The notes beneath the pieces were generated by a model. The model was given only the letters and a program-made list of their open reading frames with translations. It ran no database searches and was not told the DNA's origin. Positions 52,563 through 61,510 of a DNA stretch of 64,000 nt are shown here, piece after piece. The translations under genes were made by a program, and so were the position numbers. This DNA is from Cyclobacteriaceae bacterium (GTDB lineage: Bacteria > Bacteroidota > Bacteroidia > Cytophagales > Cyclobacteriaceae). The stretch spans positions 1-64,000 of the forward strand of contig JAHBUB010000013.1 in the NCBI GenBank assembly GCA_019638285.1, written 5' to 3'. How positions within the stretch are numbered: the stretch's first letter is position 1; the number at the start of each line of letters is the position of its first letter.

Positions 52563-54050
52563 TTAGGACAAAGAAAATCCGTAAAACACTTTTTGATTTG
52601 GATTTTGAGGGTAGATGCCTTGAATCAAAACACCTTCATTGGACCTTTTCAATTCTGCAATTAGATCATCTACATTGGATATCGCTTTATTATTTACCGA
52701 AGTAATAATGAACCCTTCCTGGATGTCGGTTTGTTGAGTAAGTTTTCCCAAGTTAAGATGAATAACCTTCACCCCACCTTTACCTTCGAGTCCCAATTTA
52801 GCTTTTTCACCTTTTGAAAGGTTTTCAAATTCAGCCCCTAGCCCTTTCAAGATATCATCTTTATAGGCCTTGGTGATCTCAGTGTTACCGGAGTTGTTTT
52901 TCAAATCTACATTGATTGTTTTTTCCTTTCCTTGACGAAATATGGTTAGATTGATTTTGTCTCCGGGTTTATGGCGTGCAATTCCTTCTTGCAGCTGTGA
53001 GGAACTTTTGATTGCATTTTCATCCAACTTGGTAATAACATCTCCTGGCTTAATGCCCGCAGTATTTGCGGCACCCTCTTCCATCACGCTGTCAACATAG
53101 ATACCTTCATTAATCGATATATTTTTTTCTTTCGCGAGTTTGCTGTCAAGATTATGGATCATCACCCCGAGATAAGCTCTTTGCACCTTTCCGTAATTAA
53201 TAAGATCGTCTATCACCTTTTTCATCAAATTGGAGGGGACAGCAAATCCATATCCTGCATAAACACCAGTAGGCGTAGCGATGGCGGTATTTATTCCAAT
53301 AAGGTTTCCATTAAGATCTACCAATGCACCCCCGCTGTTACCTGGATTAATTGCTGCATCTGTTTGTATAAAGGATTCAATAGCAGACCTGTCTTCATAG
53401 ATATTAATATTGCGACCTTTGGCACTCACAATTCCAGCGGTTACGGTAGATTCGAGATTGAAAGGATTGCCAACGGCCAGTACCCATTCCCCTACTTTAG
53501 CTGCATCGGAATCACCAATAGGCATCGATGGAAGATCTTTAGCATCAATTCGAATCAAAGCCATATCTGTATTGGGATCGGTGCCTACCACTTCTGCATT
53601 AAAGGTGCGATTGTCATTAAGAGTAACCTCTATTTTTGAGGCCTCCGCCACAACATGATTATTGGTAACGATGTATCCATCTGGACGAATGATGACTCCT
53701 GAGCCACTGGCAACCTCCGGTTCAGGCTTTTGTTGCAGATTATTTCCAAGATTGCCACCAAAGAAATCTCTGAAGGATTCTGGAATTTGTAATTGCTGCA
53801 TAGAGGGTGTTTCTTTCACTGTTGACCTGATATGGACTACACTTGGAATTGTTTTCTCTGCAGCACTTGTAAAATCAAAGTCCATGGGAGCCCTAAAAGC
53901 ATTTGCATTGTAGCTGGCTTGAACAGCATTGTGGGTAGGTGTATCCACATAACGTATTTGACTACCAGGCTCGTCTATTGCTCTCCAAATGCCGATTGAT
54001 AATACGCCACCGATTAGGGCGGCACTAATTAGTTTCAGTACATTTTTCAT
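52563..54050 (-). CDS. htrA: HtrA/DegP-family periplasmic serine protease
   Basis: A 495-aa protease-chaperone. An N-terminal anchor or signal segment (LISAALIGGVLSIGIW) precedes the trypsin-like domain with His132 (VTNNHVVAE), Asp162 (NTDMALIRID) and Ser239 (NPGNSGGALVD). Two PDZ domains follow (residues about 290-380 and 400-490). It degrades or refolds misfolded envelope proteins. Its upstream region carries GTGAC-N16-CATC, the ECF-type promoter shared with three other genes here. Confidence 0.92.
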   Translation of the reverse strand: MKNVLKLISAALIGGVLSIGIWRAIDEPGSQIRYVDTPTHNAVQASYNANAFRAPMDFDFTSAAEKTIPSVVHIRSTVKETPSMQQLQIPESFRDFFGGNLGNNLQQKPEPEVASGSGVIIRPDGYIVTNNHVVAEASKIEVTLNDNRTFNAEVVGTDPNTDMALIRIDAKDLPSMPIGDSDAAKVGEWVLAVGNPFNLESTVTAGIVSAKGRNINIYEDRSAIESFIQTDAAINPGNSGGALVDLNGNLIGINTAIATPTGVYAGYGFAVPSNLMKKVIDDLINYGKVQRAYLGVMIHNLDSKLAKEKNISINEGIYVDSVMEEGAANTAGIKPGDVITKLDENAIKSSSQLQEGIARHKPGDKINLTIFRQGKEKTINVDLKNNSGNTEITKAYKDDILKGLGAEFENLSKGEKAKLGLEGKGGVKVIHLNLGKLTQQTDIQEGFIITSVNNKAISNVDDLIAELKRSNEGVLIQGIYPQNPNQKVFYGFSLS

Positions 54051-54084: not shown

Positions 54085-54109
54085 GATGTCTGAAAACGTG
54101 GATTGTCAC
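54085..54109 (-). promoter_or_regulatory. ECF-sigma-type promoter of htrA
   Basis: On the minus strand GTGAC, 16 nt, CATC, ending 34 nt before the htrA start. The two boxes and spacing recur before 54203, 57075 and 59278. The layout fits -35/-10 elements of ECF sigma factors. Confidence 0.55.
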
Positions 54110-54158
54110 TATTATGCCCGTTGTTTTTCTCTTTTTCGTCTATAAATTAGAATGAAGT

Positions 54159-54182
54159 GTGACCTTTTGTAAAAGGATCATC
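54159..54182 (+). promoter_or_regulatory. ECF-sigma-type promoter of the first PepSY-like gene
   Basis: GTGAC, 15 nt (CTTTTGTAAAAGGAT), CATC, 20 nt before the ATG. The spacer is one base shorter than in the other three copies. The stretch GTGAC-TTTTGTAA also matches the copy before 57075. Confidence 0.5.
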
Positions 54183-54202
54183 CAAAGGCGAAAAAACAAC
54201 AA

Positions 54203-54742
54203 ATGAAAAAATCCCTAACATCCACAGCACTTGCCCTTCTGATAGTGACAGGTGGATATGCACAGAGTGCGCAAATAAAAATAAGGATAAAGGAGAATGA
54301 GGTACCCGCAGTGGTAGTTCAGTCATTTAAGCAAAATTTCAAAGATGACCATTCTGAAGGATGGGCAATTGTTCCTGTGGCTATTCTTGATGATGAATAT
54401 ATTGTTTCCGAGCATAATAATTTGATTGGTGAAAAACCTATATTTTATGTGGTGAAGATTAAGGGGCAACAAGTAAGGGGTGAAGCGGTTTATGACCATG
54501 ATGGTAGTTTGAAATATTCAAAGGAGGTAATTAAAGACACGGCTTTGCCTATGGCAGTAAGAGATGCCATTGCTAAAAAATATCCAGGTTATACCTTTCT
54601 AAAAGATCAAGAGACTGTGAAAGACGGAAAATTCAAATTTATTCATTACAGGGTCTTAATTGAAAATGACAAGGAAAAGATTGCCTTAGCTGTAGATAGC
54701 AGTGGAGAGATATTACGAGAGAAAAGAGTAAGGTCTATATAG
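54203..54742 (+). CDS. Secreted PepSY-like protein, copy 1
   Basis: A 179-aa periplasmic protein with signal peptide (STALALLIVTGGYAQ). Two related alpha/beta units follow (VPAVVVQSFKQNF...; ALPMAVRDAIAKKYPGYTFL), each with the helix-then-sheet look of PepSY-like/DUF2874 domains (VxxAVxxAIxKKYPGY). Such proteins are thought to bind or inhibit periplasmic enzymes, but no activity is established. A paralogue lies at 57075. Both carry the ECF-type promoter, so they are probably envelope-stress products. Confidence 0.65.
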   Translation: MKKSLTSTALALLIVTGGYAQSAQIKIRIKENEVPAVVVQSFKQNFKDDHSEGWAIVPVAILDDEYIVSEHNNLIGEKPIFYVVKIKGQQVRGEAVYDHDGSLKYSKEVIKDTALPMAVRDAIAKKYPGYTFLKDQETVKDGKFKFIHYRVLIENDKEKIALAVDSSGEILREKRVRSI

Positions 54743-54813
54743 GTATTGAGTTGTAATACCTAAAGGTCCCAAAATAAAGAGTACCTTATTGATTCATTTA
54801 TAGATATTTTATT

Positions 54814-55671
54814 ATGTGTCGGTTTATTGCATACCAGGGTACTCCTGAGGTGATGGGTTCGATGCTTTTTGCTCCAGTGAATTCAATCATCAAACAAAGT
54901 TATGCCGCTACTGAGATTGAAGAACCCCTGAATGGAGATGGTTTCGGTGTGGGTTGGTTTGTACCGGATATTGACCACTTACCAGGCGTTTTTGTGTCTA
55001 TCTCTCCGGCATGGAATAACAGAAACCTTCAATACATTTCTCAAAAAATAAGATCGAATTGTATGGTAGCCCATGTAAGAGCGGCTAGCGTAGGAGCAGT
55101 CTCAGAAGCCAATTGCCATCCTTTTCACTACGATCGTTATCTGATGATGCATAATGGAGGCATAGAGCACTTTGAATTAATTAAACGAAGTATTGTGGAC
55201 AGGCTATCAACAGAAATGTATGCATGGATTCAGGGACAAACGGACTCAGAACACTTTTTTGCACTTTTTTTGGATAAGTTGAAGAAGCAATCGCCTCAAC
55301 CATCCACTGAAGAAATTGCGAGTTGCCTTGAACTTACTTTTGCAGAGATCCTTCAACTTATGAATGAGTTTGGTATCTCCGACCCCGCTTATTTCAACCT
55401 GGTGGTTGTCGATGGCAAAAAGATGGTGGGAAGCAGATTTGTAAGCCACAAAGGCATTAAGCCCCTCTCGTTACATCATTCTGAATGCGGAAAATTTATA
55501 TGTGAAAATGGGGTGACGTTTCTTTTAAGAGATAGCTCCAATGAAAGAGGTGTTATATTGGCTTCAGAAAAACTTACCAAAGAACAAAGCGATTGGAAAA
55601 TGGTACCAGAACATCACTTCGTTTTAGTGGAAGAAAACCTTAATGTTCACTTTAGGGTTATAAAGGCATAA
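54814..55671 (+). CDS. Class II glutamine amidotransferase (YafJ-like)
   Basis: A 285-aa N-terminal-nucleophile amidohydrolase. The nucleophile Cys2 directly follows the initiator Met (MCRFIAYQG). GDGFGVGWFVPD, AHVRAAS (oxyanion/substrate Arg) and FMLMHNGGIEHF-like HNGG complete the glutaminase signature. The synthase partner domain is absent, as in YafJ/DUG3-like proteins, so the substrate may be a gamma-glutamyl compound. It starts a small rightward group with the next two genes. Confidence 0.8.
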   Translation: MCRFIAYQGTPEVMGSMLFAPVNSIIKQSYAATEIEEPLNGDGFGVGWFVPDIDHLPGVFVSISPAWNNRNLQYISQKIRSNCMVAHVRAASVGAVSEANCHPFHYDRYLMMHNGGIEHFELIKRSIVDRLSTEMYAWIQGQTDSEHFFALFLDKLKKQSPQPSTEEIASCLELTFAEILQLMNEFGISDPAYFNLVVVDGKKMVGSRFVSHKGIKPLSLHHSECGKFICENGVTFLLRDSSNERGVILASEKLTKEQSDWKMVPEHHFVLVEENLNVHFRVIKA

Positions 55672-55723
55672 AGGGATTGGCCAACTATGAATGACATGAA
55701 AAATCACACTTTATAGAAAAGCT

Positions 55724-55987
55724 ATGAGTATAGTATCAGAAAATATAATACCTGGTGGCTATGGGAGAATATTTGGTACAGATGCTACCACCAAAACAGA
55801 ATTGAATAGAATAGCTGAGGCATTAAGAAGGGTTAATGGTGTGAAAGACGTGATTGTGGATTATGAAATCTTTCCACACGAGTTTACCATTCACTCTAAT
55901 ACGGTGGTTAAGATCGAAGAGATTCAAAATGCTGCTATTCAACAAGGTTTTCACGTAATACCTAAGAGCCTTTTTAAATTACTCTGA
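55724..55987 (+). CDS. Small HMA-like ferredoxin-fold protein without CxxC
   Basis: An 87-aa protein whose pattern (TKTELNRIAEALRRVNGVKDVIVDYE, then FTIHSNTVVKIEEIQNAAIQQGFHV) fits the beta-alpha-beta-beta-alpha-beta fold of heavy-metal-associated domains. The metal-binding CxxC is missing, so it probably does not carry copper. It lies 52 nt after the amidotransferase and 14 nt before mtfA. Confidence 0.5.
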   Translation: MSIVSENIIPGGYGRIFGTDATTKTELNRIAEALRRVNGVKDVIVDYEIFPHEFTIHSNTVVKIEEIQNAAIQQGFHVIPKSLFKLL

Positions 55988-56001
55988 TTCCAGATATATA
56001 A

Positions 56002-56812
56002 ATGATAGGCTTTGCATCTATTTTTTGTGCTGTAGCGGGGTTGATTATTATATTCTTTTATTGGCTTTGGAAACGAAGAAAGAATAGAAAAAACGAAGTC
56101 AATCGTTTTCCCGAATCATGGAAGGTCATTCTTAAGAAACGAGTATCATTTTATGATCAATTACTGGAAAAAGACAGGCAACTGTTTGAGAATAGGATAG
56201 GTCGTTTTCTTACTTCTAAACATATTGAAGCCATTGATACAGAAATAGATGATGCTATCAAGCTGATGGTGGCCTCCAGTGCTATTATCCCAACCTTTGC
56301 TTTTTCGGAATATAATTATCCTAACGTACAGACGGTATTAATCTATCCTAATAGTTTTGATGAACAGTTTCAAACTCAACGATTTGATGGACATCAGGAA
56401 TTCATTACAGGGATGGTGGGCAATCGATTTATGAACGGCACTGTTATTTTATCCAAGCCTGATTTAGTAAAGGCATTTGATGGGGTGAAGCATAATGAGA
56501 ATGTTGGCATCCATGAATTTGTCCATTTGTTGGATAAAGAGGATGGAGCAATTGATGGTGTTCCAGAATTGCTATTGCAACACAGATATGTGGGAGCATG
56601 GCTACATGAAATAAAAAATGAAATGGCAAGAATCAGAAAGGGTGATTCAGACATCAATCCTTATGCACTTACTAACAATGCAGAGTTTTTGGCAGTGGGT
56701 TAGCGAATATTTTTTTTCAAACCCTCAATCCTTTCAAGGGAAACATCCGAAACTCTTCAAGCTTCTCTCGTCAGTGTATAATACAGATAAGTATAACACA
56801 ACGGTTGAATAA
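56002..56812 (+). pseudogene. mtfA: MtfA-like zinc peptidase, frameshifted near the C-terminus
   Basis: A signal-anchor helix (FCAVAGLIIIFFYWLW) is followed by an MtfA/SpoVT-like metallopeptidase with the zinc motif HEFVHLLDKEDG. The frame ends early with AEFLAVG at 56701-56703, but the +1 frame continues with VSEYFFSNPQSFQGKHPKLF to a stop at 56810-56812, which is the expected conserved end of MtfA (NxAEFFAVVSEYFF). One extra G in the GGG at 56697-56699 would explain this. Intact it would be about 269 aa. MtfA in E. coli titrates the Mlc repressor. It may be a sequencing error. Confidence 0.75.
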
Positions 56813-57027
56813 AAAAATCCTCAATTTTACTTAACATTTAACTGGCTGCGTTGTAAAGTAGGCACCCTGCTTTCATCATGCCGCAGCAGCCAACCAGATG
56901 ATTCATTCTGCCACTTCCTAAACGCCTGATACAGGTGCTTTTGTGTTTTTTTTAGATGAATATAGTTACATGATGCTAAGTTGGAAAGCATTCATTTTCT
57001 AGAGATTCAAAAAAGACTTTTCCGAAT

Positions 57028-57052
57028 GTGACTTTTGTAATTTTTGATCATC
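57028..57052 (+). promoter_or_regulatory. ECF-sigma-type promoter of the second PepSY-like gene
   Basis: GTGAC, 16 nt, CATC, 22 nt before the ATG. TGTGACTTTTGTAA and GATCATC match the copy at 54159 almost base for base. The region 56813-57027 otherwise shows nothing recognisable. Confidence 0.5.
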
Positions 57053-57074
57053 AAATGGACAAAAAAATACTACT

Positions 57075-57620
57075 ATGAAAAAATTAATTTTAGTTATTTT
57101 ATTTGCCCTGTCAGGGATGGTGATGGTGCAAGCGCAAAGCGAGACATTGATTTTAAAGCCAGTTAAAAAAGGAGAAGAACCCAAAGCGGTAATGGATGCG
57201 ATCAAAAAAGATTTTCCAAAGGCCATAGTTGGAGATTTAACATTTTTACCTGCTAAGCTTTATGGCGAACAGTGGTCTGCTGACTTTGAGAGCAATATGA
57301 ATAGTGCTCCAGATTTATACAGAGTAAAGCTTAAAGAGGGCACCGCAACCTATAATGCGATTTATGATAAATCCGGAAATGTCATTTCCTCAATGACCAT
57401 CATTAAGATGGCGCAATTACCAAAGGAAATCACCAAAGGGATAGCCACAAAATATCCAGGATGGAAGATCGTAAATGATGTAGAAAAGATTACGTACCGC
57501 AAAGGTGCTGCAAAAGAGGCATTTCGAGTTCAGATTCAGGAGAATAAATTACATAGAAGCTTACTTCTGAATGGTTCTGGGAATATTCTTAAAGACAAAT
57601 TGATGAATCACACAGTCTGA
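57075..57620 (+). CDS. Secreted PepSY-like protein, copy 2
   Basis: A 181-aa paralogue of the protein at 54203 with signal peptide (LILVILFALSGMVMVQAQ). It has the same two-unit plan: PKAVMDAIKKDFPKAIVG, then LPKEITKGIATKYPGWKIVND, with a shared Y-x-x-I/V-x-D-K/H-x-G turn between. The two differ in most residues, so they diverged long ago. It has its own ECF-type promoter and its own terminator. Confidence 0.65.
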   Translation: MKKLILVILFALSGMVMVQAQSETLILKPVKKGEEPKAVMDAIKKDFPKAIVGDLTFLPAKLYGEQWSADFESNMNSAPDLYRVKLKEGTATYNAIYDKSGNVISSMTIIKMAQLPKEITKGIATKYPGWKIVNDVEKITYRKGAAKEAFRVQIQENKLHRSLLLNGSGNILKDKLMNHTV

Positions 57621-57645
57621 TGGAATGCGATTAGAATGAATATAG

Positions 57646-57674
57646 GCCACTCTGAATTTTAGAGTGGCTTTTTT
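57646..57674 (+). terminator. Rho-independent terminator
   Basis: GCCACTCT and AGAGTGGC form a perfect 8-bp stem with a 7-nt loop, followed by six T. It ends the second PepSY-like gene and lies before the convergent sigma-factor gene. Confidence 0.85.
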
Positions 57675-57731
57675 ATGATCACAATGTTGCTGGTATTGGC
57701 AATGATTATTTATAAGACAAAAACGGATGGA

Positions 57732-58301
57732 TCAGCTCATGGCCAATGCCAAAGGAAATGATTGATTCAATTTTTCTTTTGATCTTTTTAATCTCATTTT
57801 AATGGCGCTTGAAGAAATTTGATATATTTTCTGCAATGTTTTGATAGACTCACCTTTATAATATTTCTGTATTAGTAATTCCCTTTCTTCCGCAGGTAAA
57901 TGATTAATCAGGCCAAACATAATATCGTTTGCCTCTGTCTGATCTATTGATTCATTGATGTACTCAGTCTGATTGTCTGGTTCCTTACTCAAGATGAAAT
58001 TATCAACATATACGATGTTCTTACTTCTTTTCCGTAAAGCCTGCAGGCAGCAACGATGTGTAATGATGTATAACCATGTCGAAAAAGTAGAATCTCCTCT
58101 AAAATACTTCAAACCATCAAAAGCTTTCAATATGGCCTCCTGAGCTAAATCAAAAGCCTCGTCATCGTCTTTAACCATTGATACACACTTGTTAAAGGCC
58201 ACATGATAATAACGACTGTACAACTCACCTTGGGCCTCGTGGTCGTTTTGAAGAATCTTTTCAATCAATTCTTCATCTGATTTTTTATCAAAATTTTTCA
58301 T
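57732..58301 (-). CDS. ECF-type RNA polymerase sigma factor
   Basis: A 189-aa sigma factor (ATG at 58301). Region 2 shows YYHVAFNKCVSMVKDDDEAFDLAQEAILKAF and STFSTWLYIITHRCCLQALRK; region 4 shows LPAEERELLIQKYYKGESIKTLQ and SSSAIKMRLKRSKEKL. It would direct RNA polymerase to short -35/-10 promoters. No anti-sigma gene is adjacent. The shared GTGAC-N15/16-CATC upstream of four surrounding genes is its likely target; its own upstream region lacks a copy. A Cys pair (HRCCL) in region 2 is notable. Confidence 0.88.
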   Translation of the reverse strand: MKNFDKKSDEELIEKILQNDHEAQGELYSRYYHVAFNKCVSMVKDDDEAFDLAQEAILKAFDGLKYFRGDSTFSTWLYIITHRCCLQALRKRSKNIVYVDNFILSKEPDNQTEYINESIDQTEANDIMFGLINHLPAEERELLIQKYYKGESIKTLQKIYQISSSAIKMRLKRSKEKLNQSFPLALAMS

Positions 58302-58439
58302 CACTTTAATTTATTATAAAATTGCACAGTAAAAATGCGCGTTCTAAAGTTCTTGGGTAAGAGCTAAAAATGGTATTTTATAAAATGAGCTTTAGCCGTA
58401 TTACCGTAGGCAATAAGTAGTAGGGGTACGTAATACTAC

Positions 58440-59084
58440 CTAGAGAAGTCCATTCTCCATGGCGTATTTGACGAGGCCAGCTGTATTCCTGGCCTGAATC
58501 TTTTCCATAATATTTCTGCGATGGGTGTCTACGGTTCGAACACTGATAAAGAGTTTTTCAGCGATTTTCTGGTTGGACAATTCTTGCGCAATTAGTCCGA
58601 TCACTTCCTTTTCTCTGTCGGTGAGTACGGACTCTGACGTAACTGTTGATTTTTTTCGTGAATTATTCAGCACTCTTATTAGGGCAGCCGAGACGCCTTG
58701 ACTAAAATATTTTTCACCTTTTACAACGGCAAAGATGGATGCTACCAACTCTTCCCTGCTACAATTTTTGATTAGATAGCCATTGGCACCGGCATCAAGC
58801 ATGGCAAGAATCAGGTCGTGTTCCTCATGTTGAGTTAGCGCTAGGATACTGATATCAGGATAGAGTTGCTTGATCTCCCTTGTTAAAACGACACCATTAG
58901 AGTTTCCCAGGTCGATATCCATTAGTATCACGTCCACCACTTGCTTCTTTAAAATGGTGTGAAGATGATGCGCGTCATCTGCTTCAGTCACTATTTCAAT
59001 TTCAGGTTCATTTTCCAATAAGGCTTTAATGCCTATTCTCAATATCCTGTGATCATCAGCAATCACGACTTTTATTTTTTCCAT
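58440..59084 (-). CDS. NarL/LuxR-family response regulator, orphan
   Basis: A 214-aa regulator: receiver with VVIADDHRILRIG and phospho-acceptor Asp56 (VILMDIDLGN), then a LuxR helix-turn-helix (LTDREKEVIGLIAQELSNQ, RTVDTHRRNIMEK). No kinase lies in the same operon; the CHASE3 kinase at 60077 is nearby but belongs to a different class (HisKA). It is divergent from the lipoprotein gene across 187 nt. Confidence 0.87.
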   Translation of the reverse strand: MEKIKVVIADDHRILRIGIKALLENEPEIEIVTEADDAHHLHTILKKQVVDVILMDIDLGNSNGVVLTREIKQLYPDISILALTQHEEHDLILAMLDAGANGYLIKNCSREELVASIFAVVKGEKYFSQGVSAALIRVLNNSRKKSTVTSESVLTDREKEVIGLIAQELSNQKIAEKLFISVRTVDTHRRNIMEKIQARNTAGLVKYAMENGLL

Positions 59085-59235
59085 AACTGAAGAGCATTCA
59101 CCGATTCAATTTAAGTCCAATTTGCGACTTTTTTATGCCAATGCATTTTGAAGGACTCCTAAATTGGGAATGTATATAGAAAAGTGAACCGCATAAACAA
59201 AAAATCGAGTTGTGAAGCTATAAATAAGACTTGGT

Positions 59236-59260
59236 GTGACTTAAATGCACTTTTTGCATC
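59236..59260 (+). promoter_or_regulatory. ECF-sigma-type promoter of the lipoprotein gene
   Basis: GTGAC, 16 nt, CATC, ending 17 nt before the chosen ATG. An ATG inside the spacer (59245) could start a longer frame, but that would lie within the promoter, which supports the later start. Confidence 0.5.
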
Positions 59261-59277
59261 AAAAGGAAAAAATGAAC

Positions 59278-59949
59278 ATGAAACTAAGAACTATTTCTAT
59301 TTGGGCTCTTGCACTTGCAGGAGGCTTGCAGTCTTGTCAGACAAAAGAAAGTAAACAAGATGATACCAACTCCGATGCTGTGGCTACTGTTGTCTCCACA
59401 GATGTTGAGCCTGATCAATCATTTGAAAATGCACTGGTGTATTTTGCACAGGAAAAATATGATAGTAGCGCAAATAGTGTAGAACACGCTGCTAGCTTCA
59501 TGGAACAAATGTCCAATTCACTTCCTGAGAAGAGGGATGAAGCAATTGATTCTTGTGTTGCAGACCTCCGCGACCTGGCTACATCGATAGCTACCGATCA
59601 TGTATATGGAATCGGAGAACTCAATTATTATTTCGGAAAAACTGGACGGGCATTGGCTGGTTACACAATGACTATTACCGATGAGAAATTCACTAGCCTT
59701 ACTCCAAAAGAGGCGGGATTATTCTTTCAAGCAGCAATAGATAAGATGGAAAAAAGCGCGCGCTATCACCAGCGGGAACTAAGTATTGAAGAGAGTGGCC
59801 TACTTGAAAGAGCGAAAAATATGCGGGATAGACTTGAAAAAGGGGAAGCAATTGATAAGGCAGAAACCTTGAAAATGATTTCAGAATTAAGGGCGCAACT
59901 GGATAAATGGGAACTGGAATTCAAAGCAAAGCATGATGCACAGAAATGA
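59278..59949 (+). CDS. Helical lipoprotein of unknown function
   Basis: A 223-aa lipoprotein: signal peptide KLRTISIWALALAGGLQSC with the lipobox LQSC. The mature part is acidic and then helical (FENALVYFAQEKYDSSANSV, LPEKRDEAIDSCVADLRDLA), ending in a long charged helix (MISELRAQLDKWELEF). No known domain is recognised. The ECF-type promoter groups it with htrA and the PepSY-like proteins as an envelope component. Confidence 0.6.
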   Translation: MKLRTISIWALALAGGLQSCQTKESKQDDTNSDAVATVVSTDVEPDQSFENALVYFAQEKYDSSANSVEHAASFMEQMSNSLPEKRDEAIDSCVADLRDLATSIATDHVYGIGELNYYFGKTGRALAGYTMTITDEKFTSLTPKEAGLFFQAAIDKMEKSARYHQRELSIEESGLLERAKNMRDRLEKGEAIDKAETLKMISELRAQLDKWELEFKAKHDAQK

Positions 59950-60076: not shown

Positions 60077-61510
60077 ATGATTAATAAATTTAAACTTGTT
60101 TATTTCTTACTGACCCTTTCTATCATACTGACCGTGCTTAGTGGCATAATTACCTATTACAACGGTTTGCAAAATAAGGAAGTGGTGAATGCCATTATTC
60201 ACGCCTACAATGTAATTCACCAAAGTGAAAAAACAGTATCGGCCTTGAGAGATATGGAGACAGGGCAACGTGGGTTCTCAATTTCTAATGACAGCAGTTA
60301 TCTTGAGACTTATTTAGTAGGAAAGGCCAATATAAAATTTTACCTCGATACGCTCACGTCACTGGTGGGTGATGATCCCCGACAACTTTTGTTGCTTGAA
60401 AATCACATCAAACCATCGGCCGCCCTTAAGGAAGCAATTACAGATACTACCATATCTCTTTTTAAAAATCATGGGTTACAATCAGCAATTCATATTATCT
60501 CAAATAAAGAAGGGAAGGCAGTAATGGATACGATCCGATTATTGATGGCAGATGTAGCGCAATTAGAAGGATCCCTTTTGAATACGCGCACCCTAAGATG
60601 GAATAACATTAAATATTGGGAGGATGCCATTCGATTCTCAAGCTTTGGTCTTATTGGGCTCACCTCATTTATCGCATTGATAAGCCTGAAAAGAAAGAAT
60701 GAACAGAATCGGAACCTTCTTAATTCTTTAAAGGGAATGAACGAAGATCTGGAAAACAAAGTCGTGCAACGAACGAAAGAGCTTCAGAGTGAGAGGGATA
60801 AAATCACGAAATTAAATGAAGAGCTAAAGGCGCTTAATCAAGAAAAGGATCACTTTATTGGTGTAGCCTCTCATGATCTGAAGGCTCCGATCATTGGGAT
60901 TCAAAGGATGGTGGAGGTAATCCGATTACAAAGAGAAAATCCAATAAAGACACTTGAATACATTTCCTACATTGATGAATCTTGTCAGAGTTTGCAGCGC
61001 CTCATTACCAATTTATTAGATATTAATAAGATAGAACAAGGGTTATTTGTTATTGAAAAAGAGACAATTGAGATTAAACCATTTATCGCAAAACTACTTA
61101 AGCCATTTGAGACGTTGGCAGAGCTTAAGAAAATAAAAATTGAAGTGGCCTGTGAAATAGAGAAGGCAAACTCAGATGAAGATGTGTTGAAGCGAATACT
61201 TGATAATCTGGTATCCAATGCAATAAAATTCTCACGACCCAATAGCAAAATCGTATTGAAACTTTCTGAAGGCGATGGAAAGTTGATAGTGGAAATAAAG
61301 GACCAAGGTATAGGCATAAGGGATGATGAATTGGCTCTTGTTTTTAGAAAATTTTCAAAATTGAGCAACAAACCAACGGGTGGTGAGGGATCAACAGGTT
61401 TGGGTCTTGCAATCGCAAAGGAGTTGGTGGAACAATTGGAAGGAGAAATCTCTATTGCAAGTGAACAAAATGTGGGGACGACAGTGACACTTACATTTTC
61501 TAATGGATAA
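60077..61510 (+). CDS. CHASE3-domain sensor histidine kinase
   Basis: A 477-aa kinase. TM1 (about 8-26) and TM2 (about 190-208) flank a periplasmic CHASE3 domain with SALRDMETGQRGFSISND. A coiled coil (about 210-260) leads to the HisKA box with His266 (FIGVASHDLKAPIIG). The ATPase domain has LDNLVSNAIKFSRPN, DQGIGIRDDE and GLGLAIAKELV. There is no receiver domain. Its partner could be a regulator elsewhere. It is monocistronic. Confidence 0.87.
   Translation: MINKFKLVYFLLTLSIILTVLSGIITYYNGLQNKEVVNAIIHAYNVIHQSEKTVSALRDMETGQRGFSISNDSSYLETYLVGKANIKFYLDTLTSLVGDDPRQLLLLENHIKPSAALKEAITDTTISLFKNHGLQSAIHIISNKEGKAVMDTIRLLMADVAQLEGSLLNTRTLRWNNIKYWEDAIRFSSFGLIGLTSFIALISLKRKNEQNRNLLNSLKGMNEDLENKVVQRTKELQSERDKITKLNEELKALNQEKDHFIGVASHDLKAPIIGIQRMVEVIRLQRENPIKTLEYISYIDESCQSLQRLITNLLDINKIEQGLFVIEKETIEIKPFIAKLLKPFETLAELKKIKIEVACEIEKANSDEDVLKRILDNLVSNAIKFSRPNSKIVLKLSEGDGKLIVEIKDQGIGIRDDELALVFRKFSKLSNKPTGGEGSTGLGLAIAKELVEQLEGEISIASEQNVGTTVTLTFSNG

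Follow-up and report, generated by a model that had tools for sequence, protein, structure and literature searches.

A predicted extracytoplasmic function sigma factor regulon of small envelope proteins beside a two-component system in a Cyclobacteriaceae genome

To our knowledge, few promoters read by extracytoplasmic function (ECF) sigma factors are known in Bacteroidota. According to the accessible part of a 2020 paper, no promoter was then known for any ECF factor of Bacteroides thetaiotaomicron (PMC7366714). In Streptomyces coelicolor, the sigE-cseA-cseB-cseC genes represent a system in which an ECF factor has no anti-sigma factor and its gene is transcribed under the control of a two-component system; in the text available to us, the promoter of sigE itself is described as not being a sigE target, and about half of the targets are envelope genes (PMC6767563). 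Here, we analysed a stretch of 64,000 nt from a Cyclobacteriaceae bacterium (assembly GCA_019638285.1, contig JAHBUB010000013.1, positions 1 to 64,000; hereafter "the window"), in which an ECF sigma factor gene lies among four copies of a two-part box, GTGAC-N15/16-CATC, found upstream of htrA, of two PepSY-like genes (PepSY1 and PepSY2) and of a gene for a helical lipoprotein.

Taken as a whole, the sequence is best explained by a cascade running from a kinase to a response regulator, from there to the ECF factor and finally to envelope genes, and we regard this explanation as probable. A CHASE3 histidine kinase would sense a membrane signal and phosphorylate a LuxR-type response regulator, which in its phosphorylated form would activate a primary-sigma promoter of the ECF gene. 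Expression of the lipoprotein, of both PepSY-like proteins and, in this genome, of htrA would then be started by the ECF factor from the GTGAC/CATC promoters; the factor itself appears to be controlled by its own synthesis and not by an anti-sigma factor. The step in which we have most confidence is that the linked ECF factor reads the boxes, which is very probable.

Boxes upstream of envelope genes

Each box consists of GTGAC (often GTGACTTT) as a predicted -35 element, a spacer of 15–16 nt and CATC as a predicted -10 element, and is asymmetric and two-part. An earlier note on this DNA had proposed these four sites as ECF promoters, and their places, strands and spacers (16, 15, 16 and 16 nt) proved to be as described (Table 1). 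The interval of 17–34 nt between CATC and the start codon was recovered for htrA (34 nt), PepSY1 (20 nt) and PepSY2 (22 nt), whereas for the lipoprotein it depends on the start, being 17 nt from the ATG at 59278 and 11 nt, outside the interval, from the ATG at 59272. At many boxes, CATC ends 9–36 nt 5′ of a start, which leaves scant space for a separate downstream promoter.

Table 1. Features of the window and boxes in related genomes. L031 is the O. koreensis locus; G and L numbers denote other genomes and loci.
Feature	Sequence	Position	Strand	Basis or remark
htrA/degP-type serine protease, predicted regulon member in this genome	window	52563..54050	-	NCBIfam TIGR02037 457.7 bits, cut-off 416.2
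Predicted promoter box GTGAC-N16-CATC, upstream of htrA	window	54085..54109	-	pattern scan; by conservation weakest of the four
Predicted promoter box GTGAC-N15-CATC, upstream of PepSY-like gene 1	window	54159..54182	+	pattern scan; O. koreensis ortholog
PepSY-like periplasmic protein 1, predicted regulon member	window	54203..54742	+	Pfam PF11396 23.1 bits (cut-off 28.3); signal peptide by eye
Predicted promoter box GTGAC-N16-CATC, upstream of PepSY-like gene 2	window	57028..57052	+	pattern scan; O. koreensis ortholog
PepSY-like periplasmic protein 2, predicted regulon member	window	57075..57620	+	Pfam PF11396 19.6 bits (cut-off 28.3)
ECF sigma factor, 189 aa, proposed box reader	window	57732..58301	-	Sigma70_r2 51.3 bits, Sigma70_r4_2 31.9 bits
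TAnnTTTG-like box, proposed primary-sigma promoter of ECF gene	window	58330..58337	-	CATTTTTA, poor match; 37 nt downstream of AAAAT block
AAAAT block of conserved element, proposed regulator site	window	58375..58379	-	shared with ECF orthologs
Imperfect inverted repeat GTATTACCGTA ... TACGTAATAC, possible regulator site	window	58398..58436		by eye
LuxR/NarL-type response regulator, proposed ECF gene activator	window	58440..59084	-	Response_reg + GerE; transcribed toward ECF gene
Predicted promoter box GTGAC-N16-CATC, upstream of helical lipoprotein	window	59236..59260	+	pattern scan; O. koreensis ortholog
Helical lipoprotein, predicted regulon member	window	59272..59949	+	lipobox by eye; start possibly ATG 59278; orthologs found
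CHASE3 histidine kinase, proposed sensor	window	60077..61510	+	CHASE3 + HisKA + HATPase_c
Box upstream of lipoprotein ortholog (28% identical)	L031			90 nt from called start
Box upstream of PepSY1 ortholog (47% identical)	L031			24 nt from start
Box upstream of PepSY2 ortholog (44% identical)	L031			67 nt from start
Box upstream of DUF3300-like gene facing away from PepSY1	L031	2503-2527	-	22.0 bits, cut-off 25
Box upstream of outer-membrane-efflux-like gene	L031			93 nt; gene named by eye
Outside-gene box upstream of DUF4136 protein	G023			
Outside-gene box upstream of DUF6265 lipoprotein	G428			
Outside-gene box upstream of DoxX-like protein	G015			
Outside-gene box upstream of ABC-transporter-like gene	G015			by eye
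Outside-gene box upstream of Rho-like gene	G442			by eye
Outside-gene box overlapping last four bases of ECF gene	G444, L166	1474-1498		9 nt 5′ of next gene; exact
Outside-gene box	L167 (G428)			>200 nt from a start
Outside-gene box	L213 (G028)			>200 nt from a start
Outside-gene box	L188 (G015)			no called gene

Within the window, GTGAC-N15-17-CATC occurred seven times against 0.87 expected, and at least seven matches were reached in none of 100 shuffles. The three further matches (20656, 36413 and 58967) lie inside predicted genes. When one mismatch was tolerated over the nine fixed bases (spacers 15 and 16, outside predicted genes, within 100 nt 5′ of a start), the sites recovered in the 64 kb were exactly the four proposed boxes.

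The label of envelope genes for the box-bearing genes was borne out. The htrA product matches Trypsin_2 and PDZ and reaches the score of the DegP/HtrA (Do) family, and the two PepSY-like proteins are homologous, with 28% identity to each other. In the case of the helical lipoprotein, a Pfam search found no family above cut-off.

Over the window genome as a whole (3.98 Mb, 85 contigs), there were 56 matches to the bare pattern and 65 to the reversed control, that is, no excess, which counts against the boxes as a regulon signal. The signal therefore lies in position and context, and a plain count alone would appear negative. Genes were called with a simple codon-usage finder, whose calls were looked over on the window. 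Position could be classed for all 56 motif sites and for 39 of the 65 control sites; 48 of the 56 motif sites fall inside predicted genes, compared with 37 of the 39 control sites. The eight motif sites outside genes comprise the four boxes of the window, a pair facing apart on contig 1 and single sites at a cyclophilin gene and a kinase gene. Neither of the two outside-gene control sites has a called start downstream on its own strand.

At the contig-1 pair (L040, contig C1, 115500-118100; boxes within 1222-1320), the starts called by the gene finder were absent or wrongly placed, and the distances given here come from rereading. One box lies 73 nt 5′ of a DUF998 gene (75.7 bits). The other lies 18 nt 5′ of a VTT-domain gene whose reading frame is broken by a stop codon, either real or an assembly error; the part beyond this stop scored 43.6 bits. 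The DUF998 and VTT-domain genes are likely additional regulon members. More doubtful are the cyclophilin gene on C29 (d 36), where the sequence around the box is repetitive and resembles GTGGCTTTGTGGC, and the kinase gene on C34 (spacer 17, d 1). With exact boxes as the criterion, the predicted regulon would comprise about four to seven genes. A global regulon was rejected, as the bare pattern did not exceed its reversed control in the window genome and, with 103 matches against 90 reversed controls, showed no clear global excess over the whole genome of the related Ohtaekwangia koreensis either. The absence of a genome-wide excess indicates instead a regulon that is small and local.

Recurrence of the box and presence of the sigma factor

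A scan of the genome collection returned two loci orthologous to that of the window, one in O. koreensis (L031) and one in a metagenome-assembled genome that is almost identical there (L032). The latter is titled "uncultured Bacteroides sp.", a title that appears wrong in view of this near-identity. Both loci hold the regulator-ECF pair, the lipoprotein gene and both PepSY-like genes within about 6 kb, in a gene order that differs from that of the window, and their proteins are 28–59% identical to the window counterparts. Five exact boxes are present in 16.6 kb of L031, upstream of the orthologs of all three small envelope proteins and of two further genes (Table 1). The lack of a genome-wide excess of the bare pattern would also fit a box cluster that is merely a chance run of a short motif; however, the result of the shuffles, the retention of the box in O. 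koreensis before orthologs whose proteins are only 28–48% identical, and the contrast between its presence and absence over the genus make this highly improbable.

Two other genomes (G060 and G076; L149 and L150) carry helical lipoprotein relatives whose neighbours look, on inspection by eye, similar to the DUF3300-like gene at the O. koreensis locus, with no box. The pairing of lipoprotein and DUF3300-like gene may be older than this regulon. No box was found in the loci examined for the lipoprotein relatives of G060, G076 and G238.

To follow the ECF factor across the genus, we used a profile built from eight ECF orthologs (threshold E ≤ 1e-40), which found the linked ECF factor in 10 of 62 genomes. 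Beyond the window genome and O. koreensis, whole genomes were scanned with narrow patterns only. The pattern GTGACYTT-N12/13-CATC was found at 25 sites in the 42.6 Mb of nine ECF-carrying genomes, namely O. koreensis and eight members of the genus; 13 of these sites lie outside genes, 10 of them within 100 nt 5′ of a start. Ten ECF-lacking genomes (43.1 Mb) gave six sites, none outside genes (Fisher p 0.028 for 13/25 vs 0/6; p 0.0001 per megabase). With GTGACTTT-N12/13-CATC, the 62 genomes gave 35 sites, 33 of which had loci to classify. Sites outside genes made up 10 of 15 in ECF-carrying genomes, seven of these being within 100 nt 5′ of a start, compared with 1 of 18 in the other genomes, where none was upstream of a start (Fisher p 0.00045 for sites outside genes and 0.0015 for sites upstream of a start); leaving out the window genome gave 8 of 12 in ECF genomes (p 0.0006). 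In a relaxed scan, five upstream sites were found in 78 kb of ECF-ortholog loci and none in either 91 kb of control stretches from the window genome or 98 kb of htrA loci.

Together with the boxes at the O. koreensis locus, this tracking of the ECF clade by boxes outside genes supports well the reading of the box as an ECF-type promoter, and with it the linked regulon put forward in the earlier note. Two alternatives bear on the same data. The boxes could be promoters of an ECF factor encoded elsewhere, with the linked ECF gene as a bystander, given that the window genome has 16 ECF-type matches at E ≤ 0.001 and that promoter types can be common to several ECF factors. We consider this improbable, as the outside-gene boxes track the linked ECF clade across the genus and lie close to the ECF gene in the window, in O. 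koreensis and in G444, while genomes without the linked factor still have other ECF-type genes (22 matches in G020 and 23 in G009). Alternatively, the boxes could be activator sites of the LuxR-type response regulator and not sigma promoters at all. The regulator is usually co-inherited with the ECF gene, and the co-occurrence fits it equally; but the asymmetry of the box, with two parts 15–16 nt apart like a -35 and a -10, and the position of CATC 9–36 nt from many starts, suit a promoter, and what is conserved 5′ of the ECF gene is an element of a different kind. There is accordingly little probability left for regulator sites, and the boxes are best read as promoters of the linked ECF factor.

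Several observations weigh against this reading. If O. koreensis and the window genome are set aside, the GTGACYTT contrast falls to 8/16 vs 0/6 (p 0.051; 0.001 per megabase), and all these p values are optimistic, since the genomes are related. Compared with reversed controls, GTGACYTT sites numbered 25 vs 23 in ECF-carrying and 6 vs 16 in ECF-lacking genomes, and GTGACTTT sites 16 vs 11 in ECF-carrying and 19 vs 29 in the other genomes, the control figures being raw counts. As the narrow patterns hardly exceed their controls in ECF genomes, the argument depends on where the sites lie and on how genomes with and without the ECF factor differ, and the co-occurrence cannot by itself separate the ECF factor from a co-inherited regulator. 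Among the 10 ECF-carrying genomes of the genus, GTGACTTT sites are missing from G441 and G021, and the single site of G006 lies inside a gene; this genome has a one-mismatch box 5′ of a small secreted protein gene, between the regulator and ECF genes. In G015, the only other genome of the genus with strong PepSY-like orthologs, the PepSY1 ortholog has no box in its own direction. The box there faces away from PepSY1 (L153 128-151, minus strand), as does one of the O. koreensis boxes.

The htrA loci, too, weigh against the reading. In eight other ECF-carrying genomes, an exact box was found within 200 nt 5′ of the called start at none of 24 htrA-like loci (of 30 matches, 24 had loci; fewer than 200 nt were available for L233, and the called start of L237 looks wrong). 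A conserved place for htrA in the regulon was rejected on this result. The function proposed in the earlier note, an envelope-stress response, is therefore upheld only in part: the predicted targets are envelope genes, but htrA, the one classic stress gene among them, has no box at the loci examined elsewhere, and the targets found in common are small proteins of the envelope that have not been characterised. This is the weakest part of the interpretation, and we give an envelope-stress function an even chance.

Over the whole order, 97 of 390 genomes matched the ECF profile at E ≤ 1e-30, and the sole locus outside the genus examined among these matches (L119) has no box.

The sigma factor gene and its proposed control

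The ECF gene lies between the boxes, where the earlier note had placed it. Its product scored 90.8 bits against TIGR02937 (cut-off 42.9) and is short, with regions 2 and 4 only, as in group 4. In a tree with 24 other ECF proteins, the 12 ECF orthologs formed one clade (support 100/99), the window's own ECF factor being the one protein taken from the order-wide loci.

A response regulator and a kinase, neither of which was mentioned in the earlier note, accompany the ECF gene. The regulator gene adjoins the ECF gene or lies close to it in the window, in five of seven relatives by tblastn, and in L161, L164 and L166 by gene lists; in L163, its 3′ end is at the edge of the examined stretch. The kinase is 40% identical to a kinase at the G006 locus, and tblastn matches to it were found in four of the seven relatives (L033, L035, L036 and L037). 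Less favourable to the cascade are L034 and L037, in which no regulator gene adjoins the ECF gene, and the O. koreensis stretch examined, in which tblastn gave no kinase match.

In L033 and L035, the ECF loci of G023 and G006, the regulator-ECF-kinase unit has on either side RND transporter genes that look, by eye, like metal-efflux genes, and it also adjoins an Omp85-type gene (by Pfam for L035). This setting suggests a different signal or role there.

Even when one mismatch was tolerated, neither the ECF gene nor the regulator gene of the window had a box in the 100 nt 5′ of it. Autoregulation of the ECF gene through the same box was therefore rejected for the window, where the factor probably does not control its own gene. 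Elsewhere, we found a one-mismatch site 5′ of the ECF gene in G023 and 5′ of the regulator gene in G442.

Instead, the region upstream of the ECF gene contains an element of its own. An AAAT-type block, followed after 36–38 nt by a loose TAnnTTTG-like box, is present in 12 of 12 orthologs compared with 1 of 24 other ECF genes, and TACGCTTTTTAGCGTA occurs in the same intergenic region of O. koreensis, L032 and G444. TAnnTTTG is described as the -7 box of the Bacteroidota primary sigma factor in the portion of PMC7366714 at hand. On this pattern, the regulator would bind the element and drive the ECF gene from a primary-sigma promoter, a proposal towards which we lean. Our confidence was lowered by the poor -7-like box in the window and in O. 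koreensis: the strict form TA..TTT[GA] is found in 9 of 12 orthologs and 0 of 24 others, and it is absent from the window, O. koreensis and L032. It also weighs on the proposal that the element pattern was derived from the same orthologs on which it was counted.

By eye, no anti-sigma gene was seen beside the ECF gene in the gene lists of the window and the orthologs, nor was one found among the Pfam-scanned neighbours, unlinked genes being outside the search. A small gene that follows the ECF gene in several relatives matched no Pfam family. Alternatively, the ECF factor could be controlled by an anti-sigma factor that is unlinked or went unrecognised, or could be contacted directly by the regulator. 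The poor TAnnTTTG-like box in the window and O. koreensis speaks for this, and there is a precedent in Porphyromonas gingivalis, where the regulator PorX is reported to bind SigP directly (PMC4800418). We hold this to be rather unlikely, as the near-constant spacing of 36–38 nt in the upstream element points to control at the level of transcription, and a GerE domain, which binds DNA, is part of this regulator. Transcription driven by the regulator thus remains the preferred explanation.

At 56002-56703 of the window, an MtfA-like peptidase frame (named by eye) apparently stops early, and peptide similar to its missing remainder runs on in another frame, suggesting either a disrupted gene or a sequencing error.

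Comparison with known systems

From sequence alone, this locus allows one to name a sigma factor together with the promoter it likely reads, several of its targets and a likely sensor pair, and a cultured relative, O. koreensis DSM 25262, exists. If the proposal is true, this would be an ECF factor outside Streptomyces that is run by transcription through a neighbouring two-component system and not by an anti-sigma factor, and an example of regulon change by box gain. Our literature search, which left most subscription papers and bioRxiv preprints out of its reach, found nothing on this locus, the box, the ECF clade or an Ohtaekwangia sigma factor among the titles and abstracts listed; the one paper returned for the GTGAC motif concerns Shewanella.

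Tentatively, with somewhat less than even confidence, we propose an ECF clade, not found described in our search, in Ohtaekwangia (Cytophagales) and the genus of the window. In this clade, which would do without an anti-sigma factor, the kinase and regulator would set the amount of the ECF factor through the fixed-spacing element, and the factor would read an unusual GTGACTTT/CATC promoter. The core targets, common to the window and O. koreensis, would be the lipoprotein and the paired PepSY-like proteins, with others (htrA, DUF3300, DUF4136, DoxX and VTT-domain genes) recruited by box gain. The kinase may in turn receive feedback from the lipoprotein, a role suggested for CseA.

Among Bacteroidota, the ECF21 factors Das1 and Das2 of Bacteroides likewise act on the envelope, but they adjoin genes for Dma membrane anti-sigma factors in the accessible description (PMC13088901), whereas by eye none stands beside the ECF gene here; no Dma-type neighbour was seen by eye, with no Dma profile used, in the window or the orthologous loci. 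SM6 of F. psychrophilum is also a Bacteroidota ECF-type promoter class and was derived from mapped starts; according to the part of the source available, its -10 box is CGT, in contrast to the CATC found here, and the genes under it comprise an ECF/anti-sigma pair as well as genes for type IX secretion (PMC9723704).

The PorY-PorX-SigP system of P. gingivalis is closer in that it belongs to the same phylum and has a two-component system acting through an ECF factor. As far as PMC4800418 is accessible, its PorX and PorY genes lie apart, PorX and SigP bind directly, the targets concern type IX secretion and the motif is another one. The locus described here has linked genes, a LuxR-type DNA-binding regulator and small envelope proteins as predicted targets, and does not fall under PorXY-SigP.

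The likeness to sigE-cseABC extends to an ECF gene adjoining two-component and lipoprotein genes, here with no anti-sigma gene seen among the neighbours examined, and an own promoter that is not a target (PMC6767563, as far as available). It is a likeness of arrangement, and it has its limits: the phylum is another one, the lipoprotein gene of the window is preceded by an ECF-type box of its own and runs divergently from the regulator gene, and the target promoters differ, being AAC...CGTC-like for sigE in the accessible text (PMC6767563) and GTGAC...CATC here.

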